Part shown: piece by piece, positions 1-55,082 of the stretch | Layout of the letters: each line of letters begins with the position of its first letter | Position numbering within the stretch: position 1 is the first letter of the stretch | Assembly: GCA_903872155.1 (NCBI GenBank) | Contig: CAIQJP010000114.1 | Location: 1-55,082 of the forward strand | Reading direction: 5' to 3' | From: an uncultured Actinomycetes bacterium | GTDB taxonomy: Bacteria > Actinomycetota > Acidimicrobiia > Acidimicrobiales > Ilumatobacteraceae | DNA length: 55,082 nt | The notes under the pieces: generated by a model | Databases searched by the model: none | What the model was told of the DNA's origin: nothing | What the model saw: the letters and a program-made list of their open reading frames with translations, nothing else | Position numbers and translations under genes: made by a program

Positions 1-402
1 ACTGAAATACGCATAGTTTCCAACCACGGTAAAGCCGTAGGGATTTGACCCAGCATCGGGGTTGATGTCTTTCAAAATTTTTGGGTCAGTTCCATCTGAA
101 TTAGATATCCACAATTCAGTGCCATGGTCGTCGTCATAGGCGCGAAAAATGATTTTGTTCCCGAGTTGTGTCATCTCCCCTGGATCACTTGGTGAGTTGT
201 CTTCAGTGACGTTGGCGAGTTGCGATACTTCTGCCGGCGGCACCGCGTAAGTTGCTGAACTATTACCAACGACCGCAACACCAATTGATGACGCGAAGAG
301 TGCGATCGCTAAACCGGTGGCAGTTGATCGACGGTTCCACCACGATGTCACCAACGTGGTTCCTTGTGGATTTGACTGAGTTGATTGTGAACCTGCAGAC
401 AT
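1..402 (-). CDS. N-terminal part of a secreted ELWxSDGT-repeat protein (runs off the left edge)
   Basis: The reading frame starts at the ATG at 402 and stays open to base 1, so only the first 134 residues are present. It begins with a polar stretch, a basic WWNRRS motif and a hydrophobic segment at about residues 35-50 (LAIALFASSIGVAVV), which looks like a signal peptide or signal anchor. The following sequence, with ELWISNSDGTDP, LKDINPDAGSNP and NYAYFS, matches the repeat of secreted ELWxSDGTxxGTxxLKDI proteins, which probably fold as beta-propellers. No enzymatic function is visible. The start is the first ATG after a weak AGGCGG, and an AT-rich promoter-like region lies upstream. I infer an exported or surface protein. 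Confidence 0.7.
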   Translation of the reverse strand, partial: MSAGSQSTQSNPQGTTLVTSWWNRRSTATGLAIALFASSIGVAVVGNSSATYAVPPAEVSQLANVTEDNSPSDPGEMTQLGNKIIFRAYDDDHGTELWISNSDGTDPKILKDINPDAGSNPYGFTVVGNYAYFS

Positions 403-428
403 GCCAGGACCGCCTATGAATTGAGAAG

Positions 429-443
429 TTATATGTTATATAA
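429..443 (-). promoter_or_regulatory. AT-rich inverted repeat in the promoter region of the ELW-repeat gene
   Basis: TTATAT-GTT-ATATAA is a perfect 6-bp-arm inverted repeat about 27 bases upstream of the ATG at 402. It sits in the most AT-rich stretch nearby and contains TATAAC/TATATA-type -10 matches on the minus strand. It could be the -10 region, an operator, or both; no convincing -35 was found. Confidence 0.3.
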
Positions 444-532
444 AACTTTTCTCTAATTTAGTTCGTTGTCTGCGGCGATGCAATATGGGGTTACAAAAAA
501 TCAACGCCAGATCTCGTCGGCGGAATGGAAAA

Positions 533-551
533 GCCCCGCATGAAGCGGGGC
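533..551 (-). terminator. Rho-independent terminator of tRNA-Ala
   Basis: GCCCCGC and GCGGGGC form a 7-bp GC-only stem with a five-base loop. On the minus strand it is followed by TTTTCC. It lies 32 bases beyond the 3' end of the tRNA-Ala gene in the right orientation to end its transcript. Confidence 0.8.
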
Positions 552-582
552 CAAAACAAAACAATTGAAAGCTAGCAACGAG

Positions 583-655
583 TGGAGACGAGGGGAATCG
601 AACCCCTGACATCTACCTTGCAAAGGTAGCGCTCTGCCAACTGAGCTACGTCCCC
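583..655 (-). tRNA. alaT: tRNA-Ala (anticodon UGC)
   Basis: The minus strand folds into a complete cloverleaf. The acceptor GGGGACG pairs with CGTCTCC (one G-U) and has discriminator A. The D arm is GCTCAGTTGGCAGAGC. The anticodon stem CTACC/GGTAG has loop TTTGCAA, giving anticodon TGC (alanine). The T arm contains GGTTCGATTCC. CCA is not encoded (CTC follows), so the tRNA relies on the CCA-adding enzyme found in this window. In many actinobacteria this gene directly follows tRNA-Ile near gyrA; here the two are about 7.7 kb apart. Confidence 0.95.
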
Positions 656-46272: not shown

Positions 46273-47274
46273 TTATGACTGAGGCTTGCGAGGCGACACA
46301 GCTTTGTCGCCGCCAGTGAGAACTTCGCAGCCAGTCTCGGTGACCAAGATGGTGTGTTCGAATTGAGCGGTGCGCTTGCCGTCGGCTGTCACCGCGGTCC
46401 AATCGTCGTCCCACATATGAAACTGGTACGTACCAAGAGTGATCATGGGCTCGATTGTGAAGACCATTCCGGGCTTCATGATCATGTTGTTTCGAGAGTC
46501 GAAGTAGTGCAGAACTTGAATGTCGGTGTGGAACTGCTCGCCAATTCCGTGACCGATAAACGCGCGAACGACACCCATGCGATGAATCTTGGCGTGATCT
46601 TCAATTGCTTTGCCAATATCGCTCAGCGGACGATCGGGCTTCACGGCCTCAATGCCCAGCCACAAACATTCTTCGGTGACTTTGACAAGTTTGCGATCAA
46701 TGTCGCTCACATTGCCGACAAGGAATGTTGCGTTGGTGTCGCCGTGAACCCCGTTGACATAACACGTGACGTCAAGATTGATGATGTCGCCGTCTTCAAT
46801 TATGGTGTCGTCGGGAATACCATGACAGATCACTTCGTTCAGTGATGTGCAGACGCTCTTGGGATAGCGGTGATAGTTGAGCGGACTTGGGTAGGCGCCA
46901 CGTTCGATGGTGAGATCGTGCACGAAAATATCGATGTCGTTCGTGGTCATGCCTGGCTGAACGTATTCGCCGGCAAGATGCAAGATGTCGGTGGCCATAT
47001 CGCACGCGTAACGCATGCGCTCGATGATCTCGGGAGTCTTGACGCGAGGTTCGTTCCAACGCGGCACTTCACCGGTGTCGGCGTACGGAGGCTTGACGAT
47101 GTTTGCGGGGACGGTGCGCATGGGGGAGATGATGCCCGGAGTAATGCGACCTTCGAGTCCTTTGTGGCAACGCTTGTACTTACGACCCGAACCACACCAG
47201 CAGTCGTCGTTGGATTGGGGGAGAACCGCTGGAGCTTTGGCCCGCGTCCGAGGGGTTGACTCTGAACCGTTCAT
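46273..47274 (-). CDS. map: methionine aminopeptidase with N-terminal SEC-C motif
   Basis: The protein has 333 residues from the ATG at 47274. An N-terminal zinc motif (CWCGSGRKYKRCH, about 25-37) is the SEC-C type. The catalytic pita-bread domain carries the metal ligands in LDVTCYVNGVHGDTNATF, GHGIGEQFHTD, FTIEPMI and FEHTILVTETGCEVL. It removes initiator methionine from nascent proteins. The extra SEC-C segment is found in part of the type I enzymes and may help ribosome association. A longer frame to 47310 lacks support. Confidence 0.94.
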   Translation of the reverse strand: MNGSESTPRTRAKAPAVLPQSNDDCWCGSGRKYKRCHKGLEGRITPGIISPMRTVPANIVKPPYADTGEVPRWNEPRVKTPEIIERMRYACDMATDILHLAGEYVQPGMTTNDIDIFVHDLTIERGAYPSPLNYHRYPKSVCTSLNEVICHGIPDDTIIEDGDIINLDVTCYVNGVHGDTNATFLVGNVSDIDRKLVKVTEECLWLGIEAVKPDRPLSDIGKAIEDHAKIHRMGVVRAFIGHGIGEQFHTDIQVLHYFDSRNNMIMKPGMVFTIEPMITLGTYQFHMWDDDWTAVTADGKRTAQFEHTILVTETGCEVLTGGDKAVSPRKPQS

Positions 47275-47304
47275 CGCCCACCACTCTACCCACCCCCCAC
47301 TTTC

Positions 47305-47357
47305 CGCCACTTTGGAATTTGGCTACCGCCTAGCGGCAAGCAAATTCCAAAGTGGCG
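47305..47357. repeat. 53-bp inverted repeat between map and the giant gene
   Basis: Two perfect 17-bp arms (CGCCACTTTGGAATTTG and its complement) enclose 19 bases that themselves carry CCGC/GCGG. It lies 31 bases upstream of the map start and 12 bases beyond the giant gene's stop. No T-run follows on either strand, so a classical terminator is unlikely. A Rho-dependent boundary, protein-binding site or mobile-element relic remain possible. Confidence 0.75.
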
Positions 47358-47368
47358 AGTTATTACCG

Positions 47369-50300
47369 CTAGGAGGTGTAGTAGCCGTTGATATCGGCGA
47401 TGAGGTGGGCGCCGCCAAAGACGTAGAAGCAAACTTTGCCGCTTGCCGACACTGGTGTGATGACAGCGTTGGGGATGGTCTGCCCCGAAATGAAGTTGAG
47501 GTTTGATGCCTCGGGTTGAGTCCCGCACGGATAGACAGTCACATAACCACCGAAATCATCGGCCGTCGTGTCGGTCACGGTCACGTTCAGCGAAACTGCT
47601 CCAACACCACTTGAAGGAATTGATCCAACACCGGTGACCTGAAGTTCTTTCGTTGTCCCAACAACACGACTGCCGCCGCGTGTGTTGAGCACGCGAGCGG
47701 GTGTTACCCCGACGAATCCGTTTCCAGTTGCATACCAACCGTTGATGTCGGCAATGAGGTGGGCGCCACCGTAGACGTAGAAGCAGACTTTGCCGCTTGC
47801 CGACACTGGTGTGATGACGGCGTTGGGGATTGTTTGTCCGGCGATGAAGTTGAGGTTTGATGCATCAGGCAACGTGCCGCACGGATACACGGTTACGTAA
47901 CCGCCAGCGTCACCAGCGGTTGTTGTCGTGACGGTGACGTTCAACGACACAGCTCCAACTCCACTGCTCGGGATTGCACCGACACCAGTGACCTGAAGTT
48001 CTGTCGATGAATTCACCACTCGACTTCCACCGCGAGTGTTGAGTACGCGGGCTGGGTTGACTGGCGTAAACCCTGAACCTGGTGCACTCCAACCATTCAC
48101 GTCGGCGATGAGGTGTGCTCCGCCAAAGACGTAGAAACAGACTTTTCCGCTTGCCGACACTGGTGTGATCACGGCGTTGGGGATTGTTTGTCCGGCGATG
48201 AAGTTGAGGTTTGACGCATCAGGCAAAGCACCACATGGATATACCGTCACATAACCACCTTCATCACCAGCAGATGTATCAGTGACAGTCACGTTCATGG
48301 ATACTGATGACACTCCGCTACTTGGCACTCCTCCAGAACCAGTCACTTGTAACTCCACTGACTGATTAACAACACGACCAGCACGAACACCAACACCCGA
48401 ACGGGTATTCAAAATTCGCGCCGGCGTGAGAGCCGAAAGTGCGCTGAGACGATTTGATGGGGGAGGTGTGGTGGGAGGTGTTGCGATAATGATTGAAATT
48501 GATCCACCGGTGGTTTGAGCTACGGGGCCATTGTTTCCGGCCGTATCGGCAACCGTGTTCACTGCAAGTTGGGGAGTGATTGTTCCGCTTGTTGAACACG
48601 TGACCGATACTGAAAGTGGAACACCTTGTGAAGCAGTAGACGACGTGGGTGTGAAAGCACAACCAGTGGCAGTGCCAGCGTTGACAAAGTCTGAACCCGT
48701 AATTCCGAAAACATTCTCACTGAAAATTGTGGTGAATGAGAACGGATACACAGTCGGTGTCGGATTAGGCATATCAATCGTCGCGGTTGGCGACGTATTG
48801 TCAACCCTCATTTCGGTAAACGTATACATCGGGTTGGGTCCGGGGTTGCCATTGAAGTCAACAAACGATGATGCTGGCAACACAGGTTGAATCGTTCCTT
48901 CGCTCGTGCAACTAATTGCAATCTGAATAGGCACGCCTGCTTCCGATCGTTCAGCGAGAGGCGTAAACGTGCAACCCTGCGCGGTTCCGGTGCTCTGGAA
49001 AGATGAACTTTTCAGTCCCTCGAACCATTTATCAGAAGTGAAGGAGAAAGTTCCACCGTTACGCAAAACAGTTGGTGTGACTGATTCTGTAATTCGTGGC
49101 GGTGAAACATCGAGACCGGTGATGGTATTGAAGGTGAATCTAGTTGATGGACCAACTGCACCATTTTGACCGATGACAGAATCTGCTTCCAGGTTCATCA
49201 CAACGTTTCCTGACCCGGTGCAGCTCACATATATCTCGACATCAGTGTCGTACTCAACAGTTTCCGATTGAGGTGCAGCATTGCAGTTTGTAGCAGTGCT
49301 ACCAACAAATGAGAAGTCTTGCCAAGTGAGTCCGGTAACTTTGTGGTCAAAGCTCATCTTCATCACGAACGGATTCGATAGCGACGCAATGGTTCCGGTG
49401 GTATCAACAGCAATTGGAGCGCTGGCTAATTTGACAGCGACAAGAGCGTCGCCCATTTCATTCTGACCATCGCCAACGTAAACAGTGCCTGAAGCTGAAC
49501 CAATGCCTAATTGAGCAAGGTCGTTGACACCCCAGCATTTGATCTGACCGTTGTCGAGAACGGCACAGGTATGACGAACATCTTTGGCGATATGAATTGC
49601 TGTACGCCCAGTACCAAGATTGACAAGGCTCGGAATGACTGGAGAGGTATTCGAACCTATTCCTACTTGGCCGCGGTCATTCCAGCCCCAGCATTTAAGT
49701 TGACCGTTATCAAGAATCGCACAGGTGTTGAACCCGCGACTGTTGATCTTGATCGCGGTTCGGCCAGCGCCAAGGTTAACGGTGGTTGGAGTCAAACGTT
49801 GATCAATGTCACCAACTCCGAGTTGACCCATATTGTTGGCACCCCAACACTTCAAATTGCCGTCATCAAGAATGGCGCAGGTATGGCCCGATCCAGCCGA
49901 TACGGCAATCGCTGTTCGTCCGACACCGAGGTTGACCGTTATCGGAGTTGCGGATTGATTGGTCGTTCCGTCTCCGAGTTGGCCCGAAGAATTAGCACCC
50001 CAACATTGCAACTCACGGGTAACCAAGATTGCACAGGTATGAGTTCGTCCGGTTGAATAACTGATCACAGGTTCTGAAGTGAGTGACTCGACTAGACCAA
50101 CTTGATCGCTGGTGTTACCGACGCCCAATTGACCGTCAGAGTTAAAGCCCCAACAACGCAACGTACCCGAGTTTGCGAGCGCGCAACTGTGCACTAGTCC
50201 GATATCAACACTGACAAATGAATCTCCATCTATCGGCGCGTAGAGTTCATTAGTTCCATCAGTGTTGAAACATTGAAATGATCCGTTTGAAAAAGTTGCA

Positions 50301-53300
50301 CACGTTTTGTTCGTTCCTCTTGTGAATGACGTGACCAGAGAGTCGTTCGACCAAGAAAGTGTTGGCAACTCATCACCGAGTTCATTCAGAGAATCTCCGT
50401 ACACCCCTGTGAAACTTGCACCAAAGACATTTGAAGCAGCACTTCCCCAACAGCGAACTTGGGCATTTGACATCAGTGCACACGAGTCAGTCGCCCCGGC
50501 ACTCAAGGCAACAGGTACGCGCACCGCGAATTCGTTGACACTAAATGTTGGCAGAACAAGGTCAGTGACGGGACCAGAGTTTCCTGCCGTGTCGGATATT
50601 GAGTTGGCTTTAAGTTCAATAACGAGCGAACCCGAAGTTTGACACTTCACTGTGAGAGCAATTGGTACATCACGAGTACTAGATGCAGAACTAACCTGCA
50701 CAGCGCAATCGGTTGCGGTTCCCGAAATCCTAAAGTCACTAGACGTGAGACCAATAATTGCTTCATCAGGCTTAATGCGTGTCACAAATGTCAGTGGCAA
50801 CTCGGTGAGTTCGTTCACCGCTGAAACAACAGGTGGATCAACATCAATGCTCGAGTCCGGCATGCTGTAGTTCGCATAGGGCCCAGTATTGCCATTGACC
50901 TCGTAAACAGAGTTGGCTTTCAAACTGATATTGACCGAACCCGAAGTCGAGCAAGAGGCCGTGATGACAACAAGTGAACCTGCAGTTGCTTTTGACGACC
51001 AGGGATTAAAAAGGCAGTCTGTAGCAGTTCCGGAGTTGATGAAGTCATCAGAACTCAAACCAAAGACATCGTCACTAAATGTGAGTGAGAATTGAACTTT
51101 GTTGGACTGCTCGATGATTGAACTAGCGGTCACTGATGGAGCAAGCAGGTTGACGGTCGGTAGATCGTCACCCATCTCGTTGGGGTTATCACCGCGATTA
51201 TTGGTGTCACCCAAACCAAGAGCACCGAAGTCATTACGACCCCAACACTTGATACTCAAGTTATCAAGCAACGCGCAGACGAATGATGCCCCAGCTCCGA
51301 CGGCCTTCACTGTCCTCCCTTCGCCCAAGTCGATGGTCGCAAGATTGTCGCCCATTTCACCTGAGTCATCGCCACGACTGGCAGTGTCACCTGTAGCGAG
51401 CTGACCATAAGTGTTGTAACCCCAACATTTGACTTCATTTGAGCGGTTGATAGCGCAACTTTCGCGAGCTGACACAGTGACCGATGTGGCCTGAAACCCG
51501 GTGCCGAGACTGATCGGTAGTCCGGGAAGATTGGTTGTTGTTCTATCCCCTCTACCAAGTAGTCCATTGGGGTTGTAACCCCAACATTTGACTGTCCCAT
51601 CGTCAAGCGATGCACACGTATGAAAGATTGATCCGGAAACTGAAGTTGCATATTGAGACGTTCCAAGATTGATGGGAGTGAGATAATCACCCATTTCATT
51701 GGGTACATCGCCGCGATTGTTATTATCGCCCTGTCCTAGTTGGCCCCCATCGTTACGACCCCAACACTTCAGTGAGGCGTCATCGAGAATTGCGCACGTA
51801 GAGTCTCCGGACGCCTCAATCAACAAAGCGTGACGGCCAGTGCCCAGTGACACTATGTCGGTGGGTTGCTCACGATAGGCCGTATCGCCGAGTCCGAGTT
51901 GGCCGGATGAGTTTTCCCCCCAGCAAGTGACTGCGCCCGTATCTAATTGGGCACAAGCATGGCTGTATCCAGCAGATACTGCGACTGCGGTTCTTTGAGA
52001 ACCCAGAACAATTGGTCCAGCGAACCTCGGACCCCAACACGTGACTGAACCATTATCAAGTAGCGCACACGTAAATCGACCACCTGAGAGTGAATCGGAA
52101 TTGGAAATTTGTACGATTCGACGATCGGCTCCAACATCGACGAAACCAAGTTGGGTTCCTAAATCGCCTGGGCTGGCCCCTCGATTGCGAGAGTCGTTGT
52201 ACCCGAGTTGTTGTTCGTCATTTAGTCCCCAGCACTTGGCACGCCCATCGTTAAAAATCGCACACGCAGAAAGTGATCCAGAGTCAATTGAGGTAACTGT
52301 GGTGGTTGAGTACTTACTTAAGAAGTGAGTGCCGAACGAAAGTGGTAATGGTGGTCCAGATAAGGACACGCTGTCAATGACTGAACCAGCAGCAAGTACC
52401 GGCTCAACAACTCCAGCACCTTCGCAATGCGCTCGAATGATTGCATTGAGTCCTGCTGCGATACTTGATGACGCTGGTGTGAAAGTACATCCTGTAGCTG
52501 CATCACTACCACCGTAGTTATTGGAGAAATCACTTGATGTAAGCCCAGTGATTGCTGAATCAAACTTTGCCCGCAAAATGAAGTCAAGGGTGGTGGGCTT
52601 GGAGGGAGTTGTGTCGGTGACAAATCCTGTTCCAATAGCAACATTTGTTGAACCAATAATCATTGAAGATGTCGGCCCTGTGACGCCGGTGGTGTCATAA
52701 ACAGAGAGTGATTTCAGACTTGGAGTAAATGTTCCGGCAGTTGCGCAACGCACTGTGATATCAACCGTGATATCGGTGTATCCCGATGGTGAAGCTGGTG
52801 AAAAACGGCAGTCACCAGCAGTGCCAGTGTATGAGAAGTCATTTGAATCAAGGCCCGTAAAATCACCGTTGAACTTGACGTTGAAAGTAAACGGCGTTGT
52901 CTCAGTGCTATTGAAGGTTGTCGTTGAAACGCGATTCAGGCGAGTGACTGGTACATAAGGGAGATTGTCTCCCATGTCCGATGCTTTGGAACCTCGATTT
53001 GCGGTGTCGCCGAGACCAAGTTGTCCGTCCCGGTTGTCTCCCCAGCACTTGATGGTGCCGTTGTTGAGGAGTGCGCAGGTGTGGTAGCCACCTGTGGTGA
53101 CGGTGGTGGTGCGTCCATTACCGAGGTTGATAGCTGCACCTGGATTGCTGTTGAAGTTGGAGTTTTCGCCGTTGCCGAGTTGACCGTATTCGTTGTATCC
53201 CCAGCAGCTGATGGTTCCGTTGTTGAGTAGTGCGCACGTGTGAATAGCGCCGGCGGTGATTGCGGTGGCGGTGAGTCCGTTGGGTAGGCCGATGTTGGTT

Positions 53301-55082
53301 GGTGTGTTGGTGTTGTTGTCGTTTCCAGTTCCGAGTTGACCATCGGAGTTGTATCCCCAGCAGCTGATGGTTCCGTTGTTGAGTAGTGCGCACGTGTGGT
53401 TTGCGCCGGCGGTGATTGCGGTGGCGGTGAGTCCGTTGGGTAGGCCGATGTTGGTTGGTGTGTTGGTGTTGTTGTTGTTTCCGGTACCGAGTTGCCCGAA
53501 TTGGTTGTATCCCCAGCAGCTGATGGTTCCGTTGTTGAGGAGTGCGCACGTGTGGGAAGAGCCGGCGGTGATTGCGGTGGCGGTGAGTCCGTTGGGTAGG
53601 CCGATGTTGGTTGGTGTGTTGGTGTTGTTGTTGTTTCCGTTTCCGAGTTGCCCGAATTGGTTGTATCCCCAGCAAGTGACAGCCCCAACATTCGTTAGCG
53701 CACAAGTATGTGCCCTTCCGGCGACAACTGACACTGCTGAAACTAGCGTGCTGAAAGAGACCGATGTAGATGGTGAATTTCCTGAATCGTAGGTGCCGTT
53801 TCCGAGTTGCCCAAATTGGTTGTATCCCCAGCAAGTAACTTTTCCATTTTGAAGGGTCGCACACGAGTAACTTTCGCCAGCAGTAACAGCAATCGGCTTC
53901 ATAAAAGTTGATGTACCGAGCGGCTCGTAATTAAACGTTTCAAAAGTAAGTGATGCAACAGGGCCAGCAAGACCCAGTGGATCAATGAGTGACAATGATG
54001 CCAATGTCGGAGTAACGGTTCCAGCGGTTGAGCATCGAATCAACACCATGACACTGATTCCTTTGGCGGCCGATGAAGTATTTGGTGCAAATGTGCAATC
54101 ACTTGCGGTCCCCGTATACGAAAAATCTGAAGCATTGAGATCGGTAAATGCTTTACTCGCCGAGAAGCGCACGATGAGTGCTTCCTTTGTTGACAATAAA
54201 TCAGTTGTGTCGGTGACAGTCAGTGCCCCAGCGTTGTAAGTATGCGAAGCAAAGATCAAGTCGGCGGTTGGAGCTATTCGCCTTCCATCTGAATCGGAGA
54301 CCGTGAAAGAACGAAGTGCAACAACTATGGTTCCTTCGGTTTCACAAGTCACGGGCACGCTCACCTCGCCTGCTGGATACGAATCAAATGCGAGAGAGAC
54401 CGAACATCCCGTTGCTGTCCCAGAGAAAGTGAAATCATCTGCAGAAAGTCCGTAGATGGCAGCATCTGTGGTGAACTTCAATATGTACGGAGACGCAGCG
54501 GCTCCTTGTATTGTTGTCGTTTCAACGAATTTTGCCCGATCAAAGTTAACGATTTCACCCGGTGTCATGGTGCTGGTGTTTGTTCCAATACCAAGTTGAC
54601 CCGACAAGTTGTATCCCCAACACTTCACAGTGCTGTCATCAAGAAGTGCACAGATATGTCCGTTTCCTGCCGACACACTTGTGGCGCTTCGTCCATCACC
54701 AAAATTGACATTCGATGATGGAGTAGCAACATACGTATTCGAATTGCCACCGATGTTGAGACCCCAACATTTGGTTGCGCCATTTTCGAGGATGCCGCAG
54801 GTATTGACTGTCCCCGCCATGATTGAAACTGCAGTTAGTCCAGATCCAAAGTTGATGGGGTTGCCGGGTGTGTTGGTGTCGGTGTTGTTTCCGTTGCCGA
54901 GCTGTCCAAAATAGTTATCGCCCCAGCAGGTGGTTTGACCGTTGTCGAGTAGCGCGCAGGTGTGGAAGGAGCCAGTGGCGATGGCGGTGGCGGTGCGTCC
55001 GTTGCCGAAGTTGATTGCGGTTCCGGGCTGGTTGTTGTCGTTATTGTTTCCGTTGCCGAGTTGTCCGTATTGGTTGTTTCCC
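47369..55082 (-). CDS. giant secreted RCC1-propeller / Ig-like repeat protein (5' end beyond the window)
   Basis: About 2570 residues are seen and the frame is still open at base 55082. Order from the N-terminal side: at least three RCC1 repeats, two Ig-like domains, six RCC1 repeats, two Ig-like, seven RCC1, two Ig-like, seven RCC1, three Ig-like, a Pro/Thr linker, and three copies of a roughly 118-residue C-terminal domain. RCC1 units share HTCALLxxGxxxCWGxNxxGQLG, each with two cysteines nine residues apart, probably a disulfide. Ig-like units share DFxxxGTAxxCxFxP and a second Cys in CxxxGT. No catalytic motif or sortase signal is seen. I infer an extracellular adhesin or surface structure; no neighbour suggests a partner. 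An internal ATG at 54820 is not the start. Confidence 0.9.
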   Translation of the reverse strand, partial: GNNQYGQLGNGNNNDNNQPGTAINFGNGRTATAIATGSFHTCALLDNGQTTCWGDNYFGQLGNGNNTDTNTPGNPINFGSGLTAVSIMAGTVNTCGILENGATKCWGLNIGGNSNTYVATPSSNVNFGDGRSATSVSAGNGHICALLDDSTVKCWGYNLSGQLGIGTNTSTMTPGEIVNFDRAKFVETTTIQGAAASPYILKFTTDAAIYGLSADDFTFSGTATGCSVSLAFDSYPAGEVSVPVTCETEGTIVVALRSFTVSDSDGRRIAPTADLIFASHTYNAGALTVTDTTDLLSTKEALIVRFSASKAFTDLNASDFSYTGTASDCTFAPNTSSAAKGISVMVLIRCSTAGTVTPTLASLSLIDPLGLAGPVASLTFETFNYEPLGTSTFMKPIAVTAGESYSCATLQNGKVTCWGYNQFGQLGNGTYDSGNSPSTSVSFSTLVSAVSVVAGRAHTCALTNVGAVTCWGYNQFGQLGNGNNNNTNTPTNIGLPNGLTATAITAGSSHTCALLNNGTISCWGYNQFGQLGTGNNNNTNTPTNIGLPNGLTATAITAGANHTCALLNNGTISCWGYNSDGQLGTGNDNNTNTPTNIGLPNGLTATAITAGAIHTCALLNNGTISCWGYNEYGQLGNGENSNFNSNPGAAINLGNGRTTTVTTGGYHTCALLNNGTIKCWGDNRDGQLGLGDTANRGSKASDMGDNLPYVPVTRLNRVSTTTFNSTETTPFTFNVKFNGDFTGLDSNDFSYTGTAGDCRFSPASPSGYTDITVDITVRCATAGTFTPSLKSLSVYDTTGVTGPTSSMIIGSTNVAIGTGFVTDTTPSKPTTLDFILRAKFDSAITGLTSSDFSNNYGGSDAATGCTFTPASSSIAAGLNAIIRAHCEGAGVVEPVLAAGSVIDSVSLSGPPLPLSFGTHFLSKYSTTTVTSIDSGSLSACAIFNDGRAKCWGLNDEQQLGYNDSRNRGASPGDLGTQLGFVDVGADRRIVQISNSDSLSGGRFTCALLDNGSVTCWGPRFAGPIVLGSQRTAVAVSAGYSHACAQLDTGAVTCWGENSSGQLGLGDTAYREQPTDIVSLGTGRHALLIEASGDSTCAILDDASLKCWGRNDGGQLGQGDNNNRGDVPNEMGDYLTPINLGTSQYATSVSGSIFHTCASLDDGTVKCWGYNPNGLLGRGDRTTTNLPGLPISLGTGFQATSVTVSARESCAINRSNEVKCWGYNTYGQLATGDTASRGDDSGEMGDNLATIDLGEGRTVKAVGAGASFVCALLDNLSIKCWGRNDFGALGLGDTNNRGDNPNEMGDDLPTVNLLAPSVTASSIIEQSNKVQFSLTFSDDVFGLSSDDFINSGTATDCLFNPWSSKATAGSLVVITASCSTSGSVNISLKANSVYEVNGNTGPYANYSMPDSSIDVDPPVVSAVNELTELPLTFVTRIKPDEAIIGLTSSDFRISGTATDCAVQVSSASSTRDVPIALTVKCQTSGSLVIELKANSISDTAGNSGPVTDLVLPTFSVNEFAVRVPVALSAGATDSCALMSNAQVRCWGSAASNVFGASFTGVYGDSLNELGDELPTLSWSNDSLVTSFTRGTNKTCATFSNGSFQCFNTDGTNELYAPIDGDSFVSVDIGLVHSCALANSGTLRCWGFNSDGQLGVGNTSDQVGLVESLTSEPVISYSTGRTHTCAILVTRELQCWGANSSGQLGDGTTNQSATPITVNLGVGRTAIAVSAGSGHTCAILDDGNLKCWGANNMGQLGVGDIDQRLTPTTVNLGAGRTAIKINSRGFNTCAILDNGQLKCWGWNDRGQVGIGSNTSPVIPSLVNLGTGRTAIHIAKDVRHTCAVLDNGQIKCWGVNDLAQLGIGSASGTVYVGDGQNEMGDALVAVKLASAPIAVDTTGTIASLSNPFVMKMSFDHKVTGLTWQDFSFVGSTATNCNAAPQSETVEYDTDVEIYVSCTGSGNVVMNLEADSVIGQNGAVGPSTRFTFNTITGLDVSPPRITESVTPTVLRNGGTFSFTSDKWFEGLKSSSFQSTGTAQGCTFTPLAERSEAGVPIQIAISCTSEGTIQPVLPASSFVDFNGNPGPNPMYTFTEMRVDNTSPTATIDMPNPTPTVYPFSFTTIFSENVFGITGSDFVNAGTATGCAFTPTSSTASQGVPLSVSVTCSTSGTITPQLAVNTVADTAGNNGPVAQTTGGSISIIIATPPTTPPPSNRLSALSALTPARILNTRSGVGVRAGRVVNQSVELQVTGSGGVPSSGVSSVSMNVTVTDTSAGDEGGYVTVYPCGALPDASNLNFIAGQTIPNAVITPVSASGKVCFYVFGGAHLIADVNGWSAPGSGFTPVNPARVLNTRGGSRVVNSSTELQVTGVGAIPSSGVGAVSLNVTVTTTTAGDAGGYVTVYPCGTLPDASNLNFIAGQTIPNAVITPVSASGKVCFYVYGGAHLIADINGWYATGNGFVGVTPARVLNTRGGSRVVGTTKELQVTGVGSIPSSGVGAVSLNVTVTDTTADDFGGYVTVYPCGTQPEASNLNFISGQTIPNAVITPVSASGKVCFYVFGGAHLIADINGYYTS
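47372..48430 (-). repeat. three tandem C-terminal domains of the giant protein
   Basis: The segment with ARILN/ARVLN recurs at 48408-48422, 48038-48052 and 47684-47698, giving periods of about 370 and 354 bases. Each copy contains RxxNTRxG, ELQVTGxG, GGYVTVYPCG, ASNLNFIxGQTIPNAVITPVSASGKVCFYV and GGAHLIADxNG. The GQTIPNAVITPVSAS part is nearly identical at the DNA level among copies. Confidence 0.85.
53193..53660 (-). repeat. three near-identical 156-bp RCC1 repeat units
   Basis: Identical anchors occur at exact 156-base steps: TTGTATCCCCAGCA at 53193, 53349, 53505 and 53661, and TGGGTAGGCCGATG at 53281, 53437 and 53593. The unit encodes 52 residues including CALLNNGTISCWG and NTNTPTNIGLPNGLTATAITAG. 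The rest of the arrays is diverged, so these copies are recent duplications or homogenised. Confidence 0.92.

Follow-up and report, generated by a model that had tools for sequence, protein, structure and literature searches.

A modular protein with cysteine-paired RCC1 arrays and Ig-like spacers, probably displayed at the surface of an uncultured actinomycete

Results

Architecture of the protein

The analysed window of 55,082 nucleotides is an entire contig (C114) of a 2.81-Mb genome assembled in 165 contigs (G000), and it ends inside a gene. This gene is seen as an open frame of 2570 residues on the minus strand (47369–55082), which runs off the right end of the window and shows the order RCC1(3+partial)-Ig2-RCC1(6)-Ig2-RCC1(7)-Ig2-RCC1(7)-Ig3-CTD3. 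The first-pass annotation had proposed this architecture, and it is borne out by the open frame, a census of its cysteines and an HMM made from the protein's own RCC1 units. According to this HMM, the part of array 1 contained in the window (54539–55082, minus strand, as are all other parts of the protein) is its C-terminal portion and consists of a 28-residue unit tail followed by three whole units. Array 2 (52979–53899) contains six units, some of them near-identical, whereas arrays 3 (51146–52300) and 4 (49469–50521) both contain exactly seven, as had been claimed for two of the arrays. What we take to be the beginning of array 1 is located on a second contig of the same genome (C21, bases 3–635, minus strand) and comprises a signal-peptide-like start and three further units.

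The arrays are separated by pairs of Ig-like domains and their linkers, the first at 53915–54538 (with the cysteine spacings C-x19-C and C-x20-C), the second at 52307–52978 and the third at 50537–51145, and array 4 is followed by an Ig-like triplet with linkers (48497–49468). The protein concludes with a C-terminal module consisting of three copies of a domain of about 118 residues, each with one C-x31-C pair (47372–48436), and a stop codon (47369–47371). Directly downstream, and outside the protein, lies a gene on the same strand (46273–47310) which, judging from its sequence, we take to encode a methionine aminopeptidase-like protein and which has served as a synteny anchor.

A search of the frame against Pfam returned RCC1 (E = 1e-123), RCC1_2 (E = 7.4e-146) and WD40_RLD (E = 5e-188), E-values low enough to rule out a chance match to RCC1, and the scores for PF00415, PF13540 and PF25390 all exceed their curated cut-offs, which places the protein in the RCC1/BLIP-II beta-propeller superfamily. 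The whole frame did not match any NCBIfam model. The Ig-like domains of the window were not recognised by Pfam. These domains do align with part of another RCC1 protein of the same genus (in genome G009; 31% identity, E = 3.8e-15), and the aligned part of that protein is Big_12 (PF19078, E = 8.9e-20), which suggests that the spacers are Big_12-like Ig domains.

Array 2 differs from arrays 3 and 4 in its number of units, and DNA identity between neighbouring units within it reaches 90%. It contains a 156-base tandem repeat (53175–53674; 3.2 copies, 92% matches) of a kind that a short-read assembly can collapse. With near-identical units in tandem, the count of six may thus be too low.

Paired cysteines in the RCC1 units

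The 70 cysteines of the frame make up 35 pairs with none left over, 23 of them in RCC1 units, nine in Ig-like domains (C-x19-C or C-x20-C) and three in the C-terminal module. The claim that every unit contains a C-x9-C pair holds for all 23 whole RCC1 units of the window, and the pair is also found in the three units on C21 (3/3). For a broader view, a collection of species genomes was scanned with patterns derived from the window arrays, and the best 80 of 265 confirmed stretches, located in 79 loci of Myxococcota, Bdellovibrionales, Bacteriovoracaceae, Chloroflexi, Acidimicrobiia, Euryarchaeota and others, were analysed. In these loci, 1053 units carry both cysteines, four carry neither and none carries a single one (1057 scored of 1078, the 21 units with a gap in a cysteine column having been set aside). 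This scoring on the HMM alignment permits other spacings than a count of plain spacings, which in 985 units gave 917 instances of C-x9-C, eight of C-x10-C and 60 of neither.

Since the patterns used to find these loci contain the second cysteine, a second test was made on loci retrieved by means of Pfam RCC1. This family is present in 31 of 198 genomes of the phylum, which provided 29 new loci, 28 of them with scored units, whose units were likewise picked and aligned by the HMM made from the paired units of the window. Here, 118 units contain both cysteines, 84 neither and again none a single one (202 scored, with 19 of 221 set aside for a gap in a cysteine column), and each of the 28 scored loci is all-or-none, 14 being wholly paired and 14 wholly unpaired. 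The presence of either both cysteines or none is what would be predicted for a disulfide, and the absence of single cysteines among both the 1057 and the 202 scored units thus supports the proposal of one disulfide per unit, in which a hairpin-like short turn between the two residues would set them opposite each other. What did not survive is the notion that the pair is unusual when compared with eukaryotic RCC1 proteins, as half of the phylum loci carry it (14/28) and as the plant receptor CRINKLY4 contains a C(X10)CWG motif. The pair is one of two ordinary states in the phylum.

The genome encodes DsbB, and the gene after it codes for a thioredoxin-like protein with a CPHC motif; these two would offer an oxidising route. 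As a point against, searches of the genome for VKOR and for Thioredoxin_4 (DsbA type) did not return a match.

Arrays in multiples of seven

The same 79 loci were used to count units per array with the unit HMM, considering arrays of at least four units. Of 118 such arrays, 72 contain seven units, 21 fourteen and two twenty-one, with the rest showing other numbers, and among the interior arrays, which are located away from the ends of their frames, 70 of 89 are multiples of seven. Two or more arrays of this size are found in 12 of 106 unit-bearing frames. Arrays in sevens, and the presence of several in one protein, are thus widespread among these loci. A predominance of multiples of seven is predicted for seven-bladed propellers, and a profile built from 26 arrays of seven units aligns from its first to its last unit with the seven-bladed UVR8 (positions 5–399 of 410, E = 2.9e-62). 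This profile also matches the structures of ACR4 (PDB 7a0j) and BLIP-II (PDB 1jtd/3qhy) in a search of solved structures. The earlier suggestion that seven units close into one propeller is therefore consistent with both array numbers and profile alignment at the level of sequence, and the arrays of the window probably fold as closed propellers. Against the sevenfold reading stand the 19 of 89 interior arrays that deviate from multiples of seven and, within the window, array 2 with its six units as assembled; arrays 3 and 4 contain seven, and array 1 would do so under a minimal join of the two contigs.

The C-terminal module

The C-terminal module did not match any solved structure, and its matches in Pfam were at chance level (E = 0.31 and 0.78). 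A direct reading of the C-terminus revealed neither an LPxTG motif nor a hydrophobic tail, and hence no anchor of the type described for Bifidobacterium. Within the host genome, the module is found on 16 frames and on a 58-residue piece near a contig end. In ten of the 16 frames it is located at the C-terminus or cut by the contig end, and in the other six it resides near the N-terminus, for which reason its assignment as a strict C-terminal sorting signal was dropped. A Pfam scan covered eight other proteins in which the module is C-terminal or cut by a contig end, setting aside the six with an N-terminal module and one short C-terminal host. Three of the eight had no match, and the other five were two subtilases, one SpoIID, one M15 peptidase and one RCC1 protein. 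This company on proteases and cell-wall enzymes suggests a role of the module in cell-wall or surface attachment. Among frames of at least 100 residues in the 79 loci, the module had no match with an E-value below 1.

Further RCC1 proteins were observed in the genus, including L236 (G000, contig C87) with seven detected units, L251 (G004, contig C1) with six and L248 (G009, contig C19) with 14. The first two end in the triple domain, and L248, which contains Big_12 domains, is cut by the contig end at what, judged by eye, is the apparent start of a triple-type domain. A different RCC1 protein of the host genome (L010, 4822–7830; contig C46; 1002 residues) contains a very long run of threonines and, close to the C-terminus, a hydrophobic segment, which perhaps constitutes a second mode of attachment to the surface encoded by this genome.

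Both ends of the gene at one locus

RCC1 matches elsewhere in the genome had led to the edge of contig C21, where a frame of 211 residues begins with a basic start, a long hydrophobic segment and a site of the AxA type, followed by three RCC1 units before the contig ends within the frame. A signal sequence at the N-terminus and an extracellular location had been anticipated, and both would agree with this start, which was judged by eye and whose tie to the window is one of synteny. The last unit on C21 is complete in the model and C114 opens in the middle of a unit, so that the gap would comprise about 25 residues and any number of whole units. If it holds only the missing 25 or so residues, array 1 would contain seven units, composed of three on C21, the one completed by the tail and three in the window.

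The second anchor, besides the aminopeptidase-like gene on C114, is a SAF-domain gene on C21 (L009, 635–3586, in G000), which starts 218 bases from the start of the giant gene on the opposite strand; one gene beyond it lies that of a secretion ATPase (T2SSE, pilus-type). We have looked for both anchors in 24 genomes of the genus (G000 and 23 others). They are direct neighbours in 15 of the 24 (G005, G006, G007, G008, G010, G012, G014, G016, G017, G018, G019, G020, G021, G022 and G023), as re-checked on DNA in 14 of these, with the result for G010 coming from the initial anchor searches alone. This adjacency bears on whether the fragment on C21 might begin a different RCC1 gene, with the two contig pieces not being parts of one. 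Such a possibility could draw on the lack of an overlap between C114 and C21, which was sought and not found, and on the fact that the gene is seen at the locus in G000 and G004 only and is whole in neither. It is nevertheless very improbable in light of the flanking genes being neighbours in most genomes and of G004, where the signal peptide next to the SAF gene and the C-terminus next to the aminopeptidase gene are both the same as in G000. By synteny, both ends belong to one locus.

In five of the 24 genomes (G000, G002, G003, G004 and G015), the neighbour of the aminopeptidase gene encodes a protein with the triple domain at its end. The remaining four could not be scored, G011 and G013 for want of a good match to either anchor, G009 with its aminopeptidase gene at a contig end, and G001 because neither a SAF gene nor, within the stretch examined, a triple domain was found. 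The site is thus empty in 15 of 20 judgeable genomes. Where it is filled, the contents differ. In G004, both ends of the RCC1/Ig protein are present, on two contigs. The triple-domain proteins of G003 and G015 (L073 and L074) contain delta-60 repeats in place of RCC1, and in G002 (L111) a delta-60 fragment and the triple domain are located on separate contigs, the former next to the SAF gene. These repeats match TIGR02608 with E-values of 1.2e-16 to 2.5e-8, all under the curated cut-off, and Pfam did not assign them to a named family. In a genome from another genus of the family (G035), a triple-domain protein (L284, 2072–3151) is located about 0.7 kb upstream of an aminopeptidase-like gene, and the site may therefore be older than the genus.

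Divergence between close relatives

The proteins of G000 and its nearest relative G004 were compared at the ends of the gene, a comparison that covers 103 propeller and 108 Ig residues of the body. The first 44 residues, including the signal peptide (100%), are identical, as are 347 of 365 residues in the triple domain (95%). In the body, 64 of 103 residues are identical in the propeller part and 67 of 108 in the last Ig domain, amounting to 62% for both parts together. The propeller part has a dN of 0.27 and a dS of 0.66, compared with 0.029 and 0.53 in the triple domain and 0.006 and 0.27 in the aminopeptidase-like gene. The higher divergence of the body may stem from the copying of blades and the alignment of unlike blades rather than from selection by a binding partner, considering that blades in array 2 have recently been copied. 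Such copying has been described for propellers in general (PMC9218822).

Discussion

The described features are best accounted for by a Sec-exported, surface-held modular protein with several propellers and a role in binding, a reading to which we assign a probability of about 0.6. In this proposal, a protein with a minimum length of about 2,800 residues would be exported via Sec and display four disulfide-braced RCC1-type beta-propellers with Big_12-like Ig pairs between them, while its C-terminal triple domain would hold it at the cell surface. The propellers would act as binding heads, in either adhesion or the capture of ligands, and these heads would diverge quickly, partly by amplification of single blades, with the signal peptide and the C-terminal module staying fixed.

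With nine Ig domains, four arrays and three C-terminal domains strung one after another, and cysteine pairs in all of them, the protein could also be viewed as one stiff rod that serves length and stiffness, as envisaged in the first-pass annotation. We consider a structural fibre of this kind unlikely. The two ends of the chain lie close together in a closed propeller, and the propellers would thus hang from the side as beads and add little length. Moreover, the compared propeller and Ig parts diverge far more than the ends of the protein, which is not suggestive of a tightly constrained scaffold. The idea of a rigid fibre is for these reasons not favoured over that of a surface-held binding protein.

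A role in binding would also be retained in a shed soluble inhibitor or decoy that captures enzymes or competitor proteins in the medium. The precedent is BLIP-II, which is secreted by bacteria and belongs to the same group of propellers (PMC9218822); it is among the profile matches. This enzyme inhibitor is, however, a single propeller of under 300 residues, and the presence of the C-terminal module on cell-wall enzymes, given its putative role in attachment, argues for retention at the cell. Release into the medium thus appears improbable when compared with display at the surface. RCC1 effectors of Legionella have been published (PMC7157520); they reportedly meddle with Ran-type GTPases and have RCC1 repeats in common with the window protein, but a eukaryote-like effector acting on such GTPases is very improbable in view of the signal-peptide-like start, the Ig spacers, the cysteine pairs throughout and the shared C-terminal module, all of which fit an extracellular protein.

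A surface-held protein with several propellers has close parallels in known systems. In bee-gut Bifidobacterium, RCC1-repeat surface proteins are described that contain two to four RCC1 domains with an average of seven repeats per domain, similar to the window protein, and another domain upstream of each; they are attached to the cell wall, encoded by several genes per genome, some of which are broken at contig borders, and have diverged by duplication (PMC4449606). These proteins use a Flg_new spacer and an LPxTG anchor, whereas the window protein contains what appear to be Big_12-like Ig pairs and a three-fold end without LPxTG. The ectodomain of CRINKLY4/ACR4 resembles the window arrays in that it is an RCC1-like propeller outside the cell whose seven repeats each contain a cysteine pair, for which disulfides have been proposed, but its motif is C(X10)CWG instead of C-x9-CWG and it is part of a plant receptor kinase (PMC4617170). 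For most CRINKLY4 propellers, the homology models are reported as 'open', without velcro closure, which counts against closed rings, and the cysteine pairs are described as absent from the template structures used for modelling ACR4, one of which was BLIP-II (PMC4617170). Several seven-unit arrays in one frame with other sequence between them, as in the window, are also seen in loci from Roseiflexaceae (L128), Chloroflexi (L169), a Euryarchaeota archaeon (L185) and Deltaproteobacteria (L139), and a Myxococcus RCC1 protein is listed among proteins of outer-membrane vesicles (PMC4158809). Multi-array RCC1 surface proteins and cysteine-paired propellers are hence already in print, and in the window protein such traits occur together with Ig pairs as spacers and a triple end domain of no named family. 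A literature search that covered few subscription papers returned no report of RCC1 arrays, Ig pairs and a triple end domain together, and none on RCC1 surface proteins in Acidimicrobiia.

Two aspects of the work concern the family in general. The finding that arrays occur mostly in sevens and that the cysteines of a unit are both present or both absent provides a test from sequence for points that are usually left to structure. In addition, repeat genes of this type break assemblies, with the consequence that the size of the protein and the number of its propellers are easily underestimated in draft genomes.

With respect to the organism, we tentatively view the locus between the aminopeptidase gene and the SAF/CpaB-like and secretion-ATPase genes as a slot for surface proteins, although we regard this as a doubtful extension of the interpretation. 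Such a slot would be either empty or filled, with a fixed end module and repeat heads that are swapped wholesale, RCC1/Ig in two genomes and delta-60 in three, and re-grown by the amplification of blades. If true, it would constitute a propeller-based counterpart of cassette-type surface variation.
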